Of a DNA stretch of 64,000 bases, positions 8,239-16,190 are shown one piece after another (position 1 is the first letter of the stretch; the number at the start of each line of letters is the position of its first letter). Origin of the DNA: Margaritispora aquatica (Eukaryota > Ascomycota > Leotiomycetes > Helotiales > Discinellaceae); contig VJWN01000008.1 in assembly GCA_007644065.1 (NCBI GenBank), forward strand, positions 1,428,411 through 1,492,410, in the 5' to 3' direction. Under the pieces are notes generated by a model. It had not been told where the DNA came from and did no database searches. It was given only the letters and a program-made list of their open reading frames with translations. The translations under genes and the position numbers were made by a program.

Positions 8239-11200
8239 TCAGAAAGTCGGTGCGACCCTAACGTTCGCATCCTGCAACATGAATGCCCTTAAACTCGTCG
8301 TCGAACCTCCTCTTATCCGCACATGCGCTCCGCTCCCAGCACTCGCGCTCGATGCTGACGACTTCGTGCTCGCGCCACGCATCAAAGGTGGGATAACTCC
8401 ATTTCCGTTTCCATTTCCACTCGGGTTGGCGTGTCCATGCCCGTCGATAGCAAGCCCAGTCGCGCGTCGGTTCATCTTGTTGAACATGTTCGGTAAGGCG
8501 ACTGCCCCTCCTGCGGGAGGCAGAGACGCAGTGCGTGGTAAAGGCTGGAATTTGCCTTGATTGTGAGGTTCTCTCTGGCCTTGATGTTGCGAGGAGGGGG
8601 CATGAGGATGAGCGTTTGAAAGAGCTGCAAGTCCATCATGGGAAGCATTGCTCACGCCACGACTCCGACTATATGCTGGTGTTTCAACAGTCGCCGATCG
8701 TCCTCGCATATTGAGATTATGAAGCACAAGGGGCGGGAACGTCCCTCTTTCCTTGTCCCCGCCGCGCGTGAGTTCCGGGGAACGACTTGTGCTCCTCGTT
8801 GACGACGGTGGTGTTGGGACACCATGCTGTGATTTATGCGTCGCCTGCATTCCCATTCCCATCTGTGGCAACGGTGGTCGCGGCCCATAAGCAGACATTA
8901 GATGCTCGAGACTCACGGCGCCAGCTGTGGGCATCCTGCTGAGTCTGCGAATAGCGCGCATGTTGTCCGTCATGAACTTGGACATGCGCTTCATTGCATG
9001 GCCGTTCTCGTGTGATTCGTACGCCGAGACGCCGTTTTTCAGGACTTGTCCGCGCGCAACGTGCTGAGATGTGAGATCCATGGCGCTGGTGCGGTGTCGA
9101 GGTGTGGGTTGTGTACTGATGCTCTGCTGAATCTGCGTGATCACCTCGTCAAGCTCGATGGATGAGTCTTGATTGCGGGAGCTGAATTTAGAGCTGGAGT
9201 TTGACGAGGGGTGGGTTGGGTTGATGCCAAACATGATGTCTTGTGTGAGCACAAAGAATGAACCGTCGTGGATCTTGCGCCTTAGAAGGTTCCATCGGGT
9301 CCTGGCTGGGTTCTGCTCCATTTCGGGGTGGTAGATGGAATGTTGCGCGAGCTTGGAATAGAAGCCGTCGAGCCTTACAGCCATGCGCTCCATGACTTGT
9401 AGGAGGAATGTGGACAATGCAGTTATTCTCTGCGACTCTGAAGCAGCGTCGAGATCCATAATGTTGTCGAATGCATCCATGCCCACGCAAGCATCTTCAC
9501 GGATTCCCTCAAGCAGCTCCATGTCCAGCTTCACCGAAGTCCTAGCATACTCCAAGATTCCACGTTCGTGGAAACGAGCAGCTTCACTATCGCTGGTGAA
9601 TTGTCCGATTTCAGACACGATTGTCGAGGTGGACATGGCGTCTGTGGAACCTTTGGCGCGAGCAATTATGCCGAGAATGTCAGGTATGCGACTTGCGCTT
9701 GATCCTGCAGCCGCATTCGCGAGTGTGAATGAGAGCTTCAGATACAGTTCTTGAAGCTTCCCACCAAATAGTGCGGAGAACCCACCTTGGAGAAGTCGAG
9801 ACTGGTGGTGGTAGAATCTTCGCACTCCACCCATGTTGAACAGATTTCCTTGGAACCAGAGATGAGAAGACTCCATGAACTCGTGCACTTCGAAGGCTTG
9901 TGCGACTAATGTCTCGACGGAAGTTTTGAGGTATTCAGACCACAAGTCGTGAAGCATATTGATCTCTTCGCATTGGTGGTAGTCTGCTTTTGGCGAGAGG
10001 TGTCCAATGAAATACTTATTGAGCAAACTCGAGACTTCGGGATTGTTTGTGTGTGCTAGCAGGTCAAAAGACTTGCTACAATCAACACCAGCATTTGACT
10101 TAATGATACTGGTTCCTCCAGGGTGCATCTTGCAGAACTCAGTGACATCGTACACACTCCCATGCACGGCGATCCAAATTGGAGTCTCTGCAACATGTCC
10201 AGTGTGCATGGCTAGTTGAGACATTGGAATAGTCGGAATATTACATGGCAGCGGCTTAGGTGACATGAAGACATCCAGCATGAAGCGTCTTTCAGCGAAA
10301 GCTGTATCGAGAATGACATCCGTGGTCTCCATCCTCGTAGTTCTATGGTTGTAAATTGCTCTCCTAATGCCAGAGATAACCGAGTCGAAGACTGACAGCG
10401 AACCACATACATAGAGATGCCCACCAAAACCACCCAGCTTTTTCGAGAGTACAAGATCGCACACCATTGCTCCTTGCTCAATGATGGCTGCGTCAATGTA
10501 TCTCGGCGTCGTCTCTGTCTCGACCAAGTCTCTGGCATTGCGATCATATCTTAATCCGCGAGAATCGCGCGAGAACGCAGTATACACTTCCATAGTACCG
10601 GCGTGGACATGCTCCCTCAGCTCATCCTCATAGCAGAACTTCTCTCGAGATTGCACGCCAAGGAAGAGGATATTTCTCCCAATTGAGCGACCGGCACGAG
10701 ATTGCCAGAAACTCCTGAACGGCGCAATACCACTCCCACCAGCGAACATCGCAACAGGCGCGACATCGTCGATTGGCAGCTGGAAAGCGAAAGGTCTCGA
10801 TACACCAATGAGCAGCTCCTCATCATCTGCGATAAATTCTTCCTGTGCTGATACTGGAGGATTGAGGAAACTGCTGCCAACTCCATGTCGAGGTGCGGCA
10901 GAGTCGGTGAAGATGGAAGAGACGTTGTATTCAGAACGCGAAACGGTGAGATCTACTGTACTTGGCAGTAATTCATCCGGATAGTTTGAAATGCTGTACG
11001 TTCTTGGAACTTCAATCTCTATTAGATCAGTCAACCAACGGAGGTCATTCGATAGATCAAATGCCTGATCCCAAATGTGACCTGGTGTTTCTGCAACCGC
11101 TGATTGTAGAAGATCGCCTAGTGACGCTCTCACGGGCCATTCTGTTGTACCGAGTACCTGAAGGACAGTGTTTGAGGACGCCCGAAGCATAGTATGAAGT

Positions 11201-13353
11201 TTCATGACTAGCTCCTTGGTCAATGGTGCCAAGTGGCCTCTGCGTAAAATATCCTTGATTGTCAATTTCGGCACAGGAATCTTCGATACAGAACCAAGGT
11301 GTTCAGCGAATCGTTGCCAAGTCGCATCGAGTGAAACAGACTGGTCAAGCATCCTGTCAAATCCTAATGCAGCGGCTACTTTAGCGCATTCGACCCAGTT
11401 GTTCAATGGCATGACGGCAAGTCGATCTCCAGGTTGGAAGGTGATGCCCGTTTCCTGGATATCAAGCATGACCTTAGCAATAGACCTCTCCGGATCAGAG
11501 TCGACAAGATATCGACCAAGAACCCGCGAAGTGTATCGGCACTCTGCAAATGTGCCTCTCATCTGATGGGGTTCGACATGCATGTTTCCTCGGTAAGGTT
11601 CGAGTCGCTCTTTCATTGCTTCAGAAAAGGCTTTGTGTGTCTCTTCCCAAGGTCGGCCCTGAGCATCAGGTGCGCCAGATTGACCGTTCGTTTCCGTCCG
11701 GCCAGTCTTACCGGCAACTTCCAAAAGCCCAAAAACTTTGTATCGGTGAACACCCATGAAGCCTCTCTCACCGGCGTAGGCCTCGACAATTCCATCAAGT
11801 GCACCGATGAGCTGGCTATCCCCTGACTGCATGACATAGTCTGGTATGCTGTAGTGATACTCAATCGCAGCGATGAAAGCTCTCCAGTTTGAGGGAAGCC
11901 AAGCTCTTAGATGCACACCTTCAGCGCCAAGGAAAGAGTCGTATTTCTTGCGGCCTAGAAAGGCATCCATGACCAAGTAAGGTGGGAACTGGAGTCCAGA
12001 GGTCGCTGGGCATCGTTTTGATAGTGGCGCTGAGAACTTAGCCCATCTTACCCACTCTGCGGGAGAGACATAGTTGTCGCCTGAACTGGGATTGAGTGAG
12101 ATGGAGTGAAAGGCGTTTGGCATCCTCTCCAGAATCTCTTTCAGTCTGATGAGTTCTCGCAAGAGTCCTTCTCTGTTTTTTGTCATAACATATTCTTGAC
12201 AGTTTGCGATAGCATCGACGCCATGCTGAAAAGAAGCTTTGCTGTATTAGCTGAAAGTATTACCTCAACTAGAAGTGAACACTAACCTGATGTATCTGCG
12301 CATCCTTTGAGAAACGCAATCTCGGACGAATCACCAAACATTGGCCATCTCAGATCCATATTGTCAAATCGCCCGATATACGGATATCTCGACGTTGGAT
12401 CCCTCACTTTGACATTGTACGAACTCTGATCAAAAAATGTAAGATGAGGAATTGATCGTCCCATTCGCTTACAGATCTGATAGTATGGCAAACCTATACT
12501 CTTGGGAATGCCTTTGACCTCGTCGCCTAATTCATCGCTCATCTCAACCGAGCTAGGTGACGCAGAGGTGACATTAACACCTTCAGTACCATTGTGCTTG
12601 TCCTCGTACCTGTAGATACTGCACAGCATCCCCAAAGCGACGAGAGCCGCCCAAAGCGCCTTGTCTGGGATCACATCTGCAGTACCTTCAACCACAGGCA
12701 GCGCAGCAATCGACTCTCGCACTCGACCTCTCGCTACACATCCTGGCATCCGTTCACACAGATCTGACCATATTCTTCCCGACGACCTCGCTAGTGCACC
12801 GGCAGCTTCATCGGTATCTGGTGGAGTAAAGCCGTGTTCGACGCTCAGATATCCATCTCGCCATCCCGTTCTAGGCCCTACTTCCTCTGCACGGAGGAGA
12901 ACTTGTCGAGCTGGGGCACCCAATGCTACAGCGAGTAGGTCTTGGTCGCTGGCGTTGAGAGAATCGAGATGTTTGACTCCGTGATCATTTTGTAGGGCTT
13001 TAATCCTCTGCATAGGCGGAACATTTGAGTAGAGGACTTCATTGATTGCTTTCCGTTCCCTATTATCTGTCAATATGAAATTCGGGGTTTTGTGTAGGGT
13101 TGATCACCTCTGGCGCAAATACTGTTCAGGATCCACTCCCAAAGGTATCTACTGTTCATTAGCCAGTTGCCAACAAATAGTTTCTCAAGTGTAGAGGGGG
13201 TAAATGTACATCAAAACCAGCTCTGAGATCTCCAGCCTGCGAGAAGCTGTTAAAGTTGCAACCTCGCGGGCCAAGTCTACTACCATTCGCATTCCCACCA
13301 ACAGGGCATCCCGATCCCGTGCTCCCAGACGCTGGGCAAGATCTCACGGACAT
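8239..13353 (-). CDS. IDO-like heme domain + FAD/NADPH reductase + cytochrome b5 fusion protein
   Basis: Four minus-strand exons, 13353-13210, 13148-13108 (41 bp), 13059-12287 and 12236-8239, give about 1651 aa. Residues about 60-535 resemble indoleamine 2,3-dioxygenases: VEHGFTPP, LPYYQICKRMG, a RMPNAFHS stretch, then WRAFIAAIE and HRYKVFG, where His483 is the likely proximal heme ligand. Residues about 540-980 are a CPR-type FAD/NADPH module with a connecting domain: RTYSIS (731-736), GVGSS (771-775), AGGSGIAPFRSF (818-829), LYVCGS (927-932) and a final DVF where CPR has DVW. There is no FMN domain. Residues about 990-1067 are cytochrome b5 (HPGG His1024; His1048, spacing 24). A helical region (about 1075-1325) of unknown type and a Ser/Pro/Gly-rich disordered tail follow. 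Two Cys-Pro pairs occur at residues 6-7 and 16-17. The likely flow is NADPH to FAD to b5 to heme. The substrate is unknown. Confidence 0.87.
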
Positions 13354-14401: not shown

Positions 14402-16190
14402 CTAAAGCTTTAAGCCCATGTTCACATGAACAGCCTTGGTCTGGGTATATCCTGCCAAACCAGCTTCTCCAAGCTCACGTCCAATACCACTCTGCTTAAC
14501 ACCACCAAACGGAATTCTGTAGTCGGAGTCGTTACTACTGTTGATCCAGACCATGCCTGCTTCGATTCTCTTCGCGATTCTGTGTGCTCTGGTGATATCT
14601 TGTGTAAACACAGCACTGCCCAAACCATATGTGCTATCATTTGCAATCTCTAACGCTTCTTCCTCGGTTTTGAAGCTGACAATAACCACGAATGGACCGA
14701 AGACCTCCTCCTTGAAAATCTTCATGCTTGGGTTGACGCCAGTGAAAATGGTTGGCTCAATGAAGTAACCCTTTCCAGATGATGGACCCTTTGTGAAAAC
14801 CTCACCACCTGAAAGAAGAGTAGCACCTTCTTCCTTACCTGCCTTGACATATCCAAGGACACGCTCATGTTGTGCCTTAGTGACTTGCGGGCCTTGGAAA
14901 GTTGTCTCAGCGAATGGGTCACCCACTACTGAAACTTCCTGAACTTGCTTCTTGAAAGCACTGACAAATGTGTCGTAACAAGTCTCCTGGACAAGGATAC
15001 GAGATGTAGCAGAGCAAATTTGACCTTGGTTGGACATAATACCTAGAGCTATTAGCTTGATCCTCATGGATATCAAACATCACTTACCAATGTGAGCCCA
15101 TTTCACGGCTTGCTCCATATCAGCATCGTCAAAGACGAGAAGAGGCGACTTTCCACCAGTTTCCAATGTTATGTTCTTCATGTTGATGGCAGCCATCTTC
15201 ATAATCTCCTTACCAGTAGCAGTACTTCCAGTAAATGCGACCTTATCGATATCCAAATGGGTTGCAATTGCTGCGCCAGCTTCTCTTCCATGGCCATTGA
15301 GAATGTTAACAACTCCGGGTGGAAAGCCAGCTTCCTTGATTAAATTGGCCAAGTACAAGATGCTCAGAGGAGTCTGCTCGGCAGCTTTGATGACAACTGT
15401 ATTACCACAGGCAAGAGCAGGACCAAGCTTCCAAGCAGCCATTGCAAGCGGATAGTTCCAAGGGATAATCTGCCCGCAGACACCCACTGGCTCCTTGATG
15501 GTGTAGGCAAATTTGTTTGGTCCAGTGTCAATAACTTGGCCATGGATTTTATCGGCATAGCCTCCATAATATTTCATGACACCAATAACCTCTCCAGCAT
15601 CTCCAAGAGCCTCACTATATGGCTTGCCGTTATCCCAGGTCTCAATGGTTGCCAATGTCTCGGTATGTGCTGCACATAGGTCGGAGAGCTTGATCATCAT
15701 GTTTCCACGGTCGGTAGGAGAGAGATCACGCCAGGCTGGGTCTTTCATTGCCTTGCGAGCTGCAGCCACAGCTGTATCGACGTCTTCGACTGTAGCTGCA
15801 TACACCGAGGCAATCTCAGTCTCATCACTGGTAGAAGATCAGCTTGGCTCTGTATGGAAAGAGAGATATGAAGTCTTACGTAGGATTAATAGTGGCTATC
15901 TTTTGGCCATTGCTACTCTTGACCCATTCATTGTTGATGAACAACCCCAGAGGTTGTGTATATTTCCTGCCATTGGGTGCCGTAAGTTCGACTGAGAGAT
16001 CAGACATCTTCAATGCTGTGCAACTAAAAGACCTGCGACTATTCTTGCTAATACGAGTGCTTGGAGCTGATGTTCGAGAGAAAGATGGCAGGAGCTCTTT
16101 TGTATGCAAAGTAGTGTTGCTGATGTGCTTGCTTATCTGAAGTAGTGAACCTCGCAGATGTGCCGGCAGAGGGAGGAGATATCGAAGCAT
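14402..16190 (-). CDS. NAD(P)+-dependent aldehyde dehydrogenase, possible mitochondrial leader
   Basis: Three minus-strand exons, 16190-15880, 15827-15088 and 15042-14402, encode 563 aa; from the internal ATG at codon 62 it is 502 aa, the usual ALDH length. ALDH marks are all present: IIPWNYPL, FTGSTATGKEI, LETGGKSPL with the general-base glutamate, the catalytic cysteine in NQGQICSA just after intron 2, and EEVFGPF. The enzyme oxidises an aldehyde to an acid. The first 61 residues are rich in Arg, Ser and Leu with almost no acidic residues, and contain RRSFS, a typical mitochondrial processing site. The two in-frame ATGs may thus give mitochondrial and cytosolic forms. Both introns have GTAAG donors (52 and 45 bp). 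Its neighbour, an acetate carrier further along, would fit acetaldehyde/acetate metabolism. Confidence 0.95.

Follow-up and report, generated by a model that had tools for sequence, protein, structure and literature searches.

A fungal and actinobacterial fusion of an IDO-like heme domain with a reductase and cytochrome b5 as a putative self-sufficient heme oxygenase

We analyzed a window of 64,000 nt from Margaritispora aquatica (GCA_007644065.1, contig VJWN01000008.1, positions 1,428,411-1,492,410, forward strand; position 1 is the first letter), which harbors on its minus strand a gene for a protein of 1651 aa. In this protein a heme domain related to indoleamine 2,3-dioxygenase (IDO) is followed by a FAD/NADPH module of the cytochrome P450 reductase (CPR) type and by a cytochrome b5 domain. 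We propose, with a probability of about 0.58, that the fusion is a self-sufficient, IDO-fold heme oxygenase. A preliminary description of this DNA had also arrived at a self-sufficient oxygenase. This is still the most economical reading of three redox modules with conserved heme ligands and no FMN domain, but it was too narrow: the active site is not of the tryptophan type, and further parts are present, namely a helical domain and a tail in the fungus, and an FHA domain and a CBS neighbor in bacteria.

All three redox modules described for this chain were found by Pfam on the 1651-aa model. IDO (PF01231) matched residues 134-366 (E 1.1e-12; 47.9 bits, cut-off 26), FAD_binding_1 residues 561-776 (42.2 bits, cut-off 32.3), NAD_binding_1 residues 816-884 (33.5 bits, cut-off 22) and Cyt-b5 (PF00173) residues 1000-1066, with both heme His present. 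These were the only four families at E≤1; no FMN/flavodoxin, globin or nitric oxide synthase (NOS) oxygenase family was found at this threshold, which agrees with the earlier view of a reductase lacking the FMN domain.

A search for the same domain order in other fungi had been suggested. A search with the whole protein gave 310 proteins at E up to 1e-3, and 114 of the best 120, which were listed, carry all four Pfam domains. The remaining six lack IDO (P0011, P0013, P0014, P0106), Cyt-b5 (P0061) or NAD_binding_1 (P0077). Named species among the listed proteins include Leotiomycetes, Dothideomycetes, Eurotiomycetes and Sordariomycetes (one name each). We aligned the window protein with the 114 listed proteins of 1450-1760 aa, leaving out P0007, P0011, P0013, P0014, P0015 and P0106 by length. 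Over these 115 rows, identity to the window protein averaged 78% for the IDO-like part, 76% for b5, 69% for the FAD/NADPH module and 61% for the helical domain, and 34% for the tail, which was covered by 73 rows only.

Two short peptide patterns, scanned against a collection of 84,980 prokaryote species genomes, matched in Streptomyces sp. NEAU-Y11 and Acrocarpospora catenulata. Both contain the fusion as an intronless open reading frame (ORF; 1188 and 1132 aa, respectively), and the order of the IDO-like, FAD/NADPH, b5 and C-terminal parts is kept. Whole-genome searches gave matches in 3 of the 396 genomes from the phylum to which the Streptomyces record belongs, and in 11 of 198 genomes related to the Acrocarpospora record (the records themselves included; one of the 11 partial). 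The bacterial set used here comprised 13 loci from 12 genomes, without G465 and the partial match in G399. All four Pfam families were present in 13 of 13 proteins and an N-terminal FHA domain in nine, with no FMN domain among the families listed for them (E up to 0.001); FAD_binding_1 stayed below its cut-off in four of the proteins shown (32.0, 29.5, 26.3 and 19.5 bits) and exceeded it in L019 (36.5 bits). Judged by these comparisons, the fusion is a family of Pezizomycotina and some actinobacteria and not a single-species oddity. The C-terminal helical part shares 11-22% identity between fungi and bacteria, and its equivalence between the kingdoms is therefore the weakest. Among six proteins examined, three each from bacteria and fungi, none brought an NCBIfam model to its cut-off.

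Residues expected for cofactor binding are widely conserved. The cytochrome b5 domain had been credited with both heme ligands, and H1024 is His in 114 of 115 fungal rows (one gap) and H1048 in 115 of 115. The reductase ends in DVF, not in the DVW of CPR, as had been pointed out; the terminal Phe and the RxYS motif occur in 115/115 fungal and 13/13 bacterial rows. The Ser-Arg pair, which we take to bind the NADPH phosphate, is present in all 115 fungal rows. The nearest solved structures to the reductase by sequence are sulfite reductase alpha and NOS reductase.

The lack of any IDO relationship had been named beforehand as a finding that would speak against the fusion, and the heme part turned out to be related to IDO both by its Pfam score and by the predicted IDO fold, obtained from a model of the homologue P0121. 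In global hhalign comparisons the bacterial IDO-like part gave E 2e-39 against stand-alone fungal IDO and 1e-74 against the fungal fusion. We aligned 20 fungal and 13 bacterial members jointly (n=33). H483 was the only invariant His of the IDO-like part, with G481, R484, K486, G489, G498, R499 and T502 invariant around it; in both global hhalign runs it fell on the canonical heme His of IDO, preceded by an insertion of three residues. We propose H483 as the candidate proximal heme ligand.

The active site differs from that of tryptophan-type IDO. The GTGGT loop and the GGS[AN]xQSS motif, which we take to be the functional signature of IDO, each occur in 0/115 fungal and 0/13 bacterial fusions versus 111/112 stand-alone fungal IDOs, and YMPxxH in 0/115 and 0/13 versus 112/112. 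The reverse holds for the pattern G[FWYL][ML]GxHRxK, which is present in 111/115 fungal and 13/13 bacterial fusions and in 0/112 stand-alone IDOs. The numbering of the printed IDO1 segments reproduced F163, S167, F226, R231, S263 and H346, whose roles we assume to be the accepted ones. Arg231 of IDO binds the substrate carboxylate. Fitting P378-K393 by eye on the IDO helix with F226 and R231 brings W381 to the place of F226 and K386 to that of R231. Position 386 is occupied by Lys in 103 of 115 fungal rows and in 11 of 13 bacterial rows; since hhalign aligns this stretch differently, we hold this assignment more weakly. The IDO-like domain of the preliminary description is borne out in family, predicted fold and candidate heme His, but not as a tryptophan-type active site.

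Ordinary IDOs exist beside the fusion. Elsewhere in the M. aquatica genome there are two IDO genes with GTGGT and a diverged third gene; for one of these, the best match crosses a stop, perhaps in an intron. The third (G000:C17:136965-137240, L007) is strongly diverged and has several exons. Five species had a fusion as well as a stand-alone IDO among the proteins listed; between them the IDO-like part of the fusion was 74-90% identical and the stand-alone protein 51-62% (10/10 pairs; orthology of the stand-alone proteins assumed). According to PMC4191572, the homologous fungal IDO alpha, beta and gamma arose by duplication. By these comparisons, the fusion is not the ordinary IDO of the fungus.

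In the mechanism that we propose, NADPH would reduce the FAD of the CPR-type module, and FAD would hand single electrons to the cytochrome b5 heme. The latter would in turn reduce the heme of the IDO-like domain, with His483 as its ligand, and the ferrous IDO-fold heme would bind O2 and oxidize a substrate that is probably not L-tryptophan but another small aromatic compound. That the reductase is built in suggests a use of electrons in each turnover and not merely to hold the iron ferrous. Several points weigh against this proposal. The ungapped HMMER alignment puts residue 480 at the IDO heme His; this residue is Met in 111 and Leu in four of the 115 rows and hence less likely as a heme ligand. 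Among the 13 bacterial members the NADPH-binding Ser is present in 12 and the Arg in 11. The transfer from FAD to b5 in a CPR-type module without FMN is a step that we infer, and the helical domain, FHA and CBS are given no role.

The fusion might instead be a genuine tryptophan 2,3-dioxygenase that carries its own activating system, in which reductase and b5 only hold the heme ferrous and N-formylkynurenine is formed. The predicted fold and the candidate proximal His would fit, as would the need of IDO for a reductant, stated in the literature. We consider this unlikely because the IDO signature loops are gone from all 115 fungal and 13 bacterial fusions compared, because ordinary IDOs are kept alongside, three in the same genome and others in the five compared species, and because a dioxygenation with no net demand for electrons hardly accounts for a covalently joined reductase that actinobacteria and moulds have both kept; the Lys at the place of Arg231 in the by-eye alignment would also argue against it. 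Even less probable is that the protein acts on a small inorganic molecule, for instance as a NO dioxygenase or in handling nitrite or peroxide. A heme and FAD/NADPH in one chain follow the principle of flavohemoglobin, here on an IDO-fold heme, and the reductase sequence is close to NOS and sulfite reductase, but Pfam found no globin or NOS oxygenase family, and the strong IDO-like conservation weakly implies more than a small-ligand site. The available parts of two papers on fungal nitric oxide (PMC4948021, PMC10889981) contain neither "cytochrome b5" nor "sulfite reductase", and we draw no link to them.

A redox or gas sensor, with the heme domain signaling the O2, heme or NADPH state via FHA and a CBS partner in bacteria or via the tail in fungi, is very unlikely. 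It would account for the FHA domain in nine of 13 bacterial members, for a CBS-pair gene directly upstream in ten of 13 and for the variable tail with its widely kept RRLS motif. FHA is, however, missing in four of the 13, the nine FHA members are 83-92% identical to their representative and so not independent, and sensing requires no complete reductase. We rejected a chimeric gene model, in which neighboring genes were wrongly joined, as extremely improbable. Six of the 120 listed proteins lack a domain and shorter database records exist, but one open frame of 1335 codons spans the C-terminal half of the IDO-like part, the reductase, b5 and everything downstream, and a break between the IDO-like part and the reductase is also disfavored by the four domains in one protein in the other 114 and by the 13 intronless bacterial ORFs. 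We looked at 13 of 87 listed shorter relatives. Ten end in unrelated residues, which in P0125 directly follow the IDO-like part; P0127 just stops, and P0124 and P0129 leave out parts. We read these, short of proof, as gene calling across introns; a shorter form may be real in some species.

The self-sufficient oxygenase that we favor shares features with several known systems. It resembles IDO (IDO1/IDO2 and fungal IDO alpha, beta and gamma; PF01231) in predicted fold, Pfam score and candidate heme His, but differs in the lost motifs, in the Lys set by eye at the Arg231 place, in being joined to reductase and b5 and in being kept beside stand-alone IDOs. It shares FAD_binding_1, NAD_binding_1, RxYS, the Ser-Arg pair and a terminal aromatic residue with CPR, NOS reductase and sulfite reductase alpha, but lacks the FMN domain and ends in Phe as in NOS, not in Trp. 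P450BM3 and P450foxy are self-sufficient P450s with an oxygenase fused to a reductase, and in nitrate reductase and Ncb5or FAD passes electrons straight to a b5 domain. The fusion is alike in principle (oxygenase with reductase, or FAD to b5 in the same chain) and differs in that the heme domain is of the IDO fold and not a P450, FMN is absent and b5 follows the reductase. According to PMC4191572 and PMC13142367, cytochrome b5 has been proposed as physiological IDO reductant, and IDO1 is supported in vitro by CPR, alone or together with b5; PMC13142367 calls the in vivo operation of such systems still unclear. TDO, PrnB, TyrH, SfmD and MarE are heme-dependent aromatic oxygenases with a His ligand that belong to a single superfamily of diverse chemistry, of which the fusion, by its predicted fold and His, would be a further branch. 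In the accessible part of PMC11791213, which describes this superfamily, no member has its own reductase, unlike the fusion, and PrnB formed no product when b5 or CPR was supplied as a separate protein.

More tentatively, the fusion could represent a further class of IDO-fold oxygenases beside IDO/TDO in fungi and actinobacteria, self-contained with NADPH, FAD, b5 heme and IDO-fold heme, in which NADPH electrons insert oxygen into the substrate at each turnover and which, in bacteria, is controlled by phosphothreonine (FHA) and nucleotide (CBS) signals; we regard this as possible rather than probable. With a non-tryptophan substrate and coupled NADPH use, a further functional class would stand on the IDO fold. 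The covalent arrangement makes the electron step from b5 to an IDO-fold heme directly measurable, and the protein could be a natural counterpart of P450BM3 built on a His-ligated fold. Its parts are known and their order is already in sequence databases; in the literature searched, which did not extend to most subscription papers, none of the titles and abstract openings listed describes the fusion. It is widespread in moulds, yet depositors often label it as sulfite reductase alpha (e.g., "sulfite reductase flavoprotein alpha-component"), NADPH-hemoprotein reductase or hypothetical.

The gene model (Table 1) joins four exons into a frame without stops, with splicing predicted from the sequence. 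The introns of 61, 48 and 50 nt are all GT-AG; the third has the acceptor AAG and lies inside the IDO-like domain, and the sequence at its joint, DTSASFQHG, was the same in 10 of 11 homologues printed. Three small upstream exons had been described; two are indeed small, but the third is not.

Table 1. Exons and protein features of the fusion gene (positions in the window).
Feature	Position	Strand	Remarks
Exon 1	13210..13353	-	Residues 1-48, with Cys-Pro motifs; 144 nt; from N-termini of homologues
Exon 2	13108..13148	-	41 nt; from frame and homologues
Exon 3	12287..13059	-	773 nt; N-terminal half of IDO-like domain
Exon 4	8239..12236	-	Stop codon included
IDO-like heme domain	11584..12929	-	About residues 106-537; Pfam and predicted fold of homologue P0121
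H483, proposed heme ligand	11746..11748	-	Sole invariant His of IDO-like part in 33 sequences; aligned with IDO heme His
K386, at IDO Arg231 place (by-eye alignment)	12037..12039	-	Lys in 103/115 fungal, 11/13 bacterial rows
FAD/NADPH module, ends in DVF	10267..11514	-	Residues 561-976; Pfam, structure-sequence comparison, alignment
Cytochrome b5 domain	9985..10233	-	Residues 988-1070; heme His 1024, 1048
Helical domain	9205..9966	-	Residues 1077-1330; predicted structure, no Pfam match
Ser-rich variable tail	8242..9204	-	Residues 1331-1651; 34% mean identity over 73 rows

The helical domain and the Ser-rich tail after b5 go beyond the earlier account. The predicted structure of residues 985-1330 had a mean predicted local distance difference test score (pLDDT) of 88.7. 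The helical domain gave no Pfam match at E up to 10, and no second copy was found in the own genome; PDB match lists for residues including b5 and this domain were filled by b5, and its fold was left unassigned. An additional heme in this domain was rejected, as no His is kept there at ≥98.5%. The most hydrophobic 19-residue stretch of the protein scores 1.52, and hydrophobicity does not suggest a membrane anchor. The N-terminus (residues 1-33; 13254-13353, minus strand) contains Cys-Pro motifs (SCP...GCP), which resemble heme regulatory motifs; at least two CP occur within the first 40 residues in 70 of 115 aligned members and one CP in nine. At least 96 of 115 rows retain the RRLS motif of the tail (8938-8949, minus strand; about residues 1416-1419), counting its six commonest forms; the motif looks like a kinase target site.

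The CBS-pair gene of the ten bacterial loci lies on the same strand as the fusion (nine found by script, L048 by eye), at a distance of 49 nt in eight loci and with a 4-nt overlap in L046. The Pfam check for CBS covered two of the ten neighbors. As the nine FHA-bearing proteins are closely related, the FHA and CBS counts are not independent. No other neighbor was common to more than 3 of the 13 loci. The CBS-pair gene of L046 (11230-12096) is longer (288 aa); Pfam names only CBS, and the extra N-terminal stretch looks by eye like a receiver domain. Acrocarpospora catenulata (G002) has two full-length fusion copies (L048, L049) with 41% identity, one with FHA and CBS neighbor and the other without.

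In a tree of the IDO-like part of the fusions with, as the only stand-alone IDOs, 15 randomly drawn of the 112 fungal ones, the fungal fusions formed one group (support 0.79). The root of the fusions had a support of 0.09, too low to name the kingdom of origin. An anti-phage system was rejected, with no PADLOC match for three proteins, and so was spread by plasmids, as the plasmid collection gave no match at E 1e-20.

Adjoining the fusion gene in the window, two minus-strand frames (14402-15838) resemble aldehyde dehydrogenase by eye. ORF translations between 40979 and 46704, also judged by eye, point to a purine-type permease with a guanine-deaminase-like amidohydrolase and a 2-oxoglutarate/iron-type oxygenase nearby; the three may form a group for purine use.

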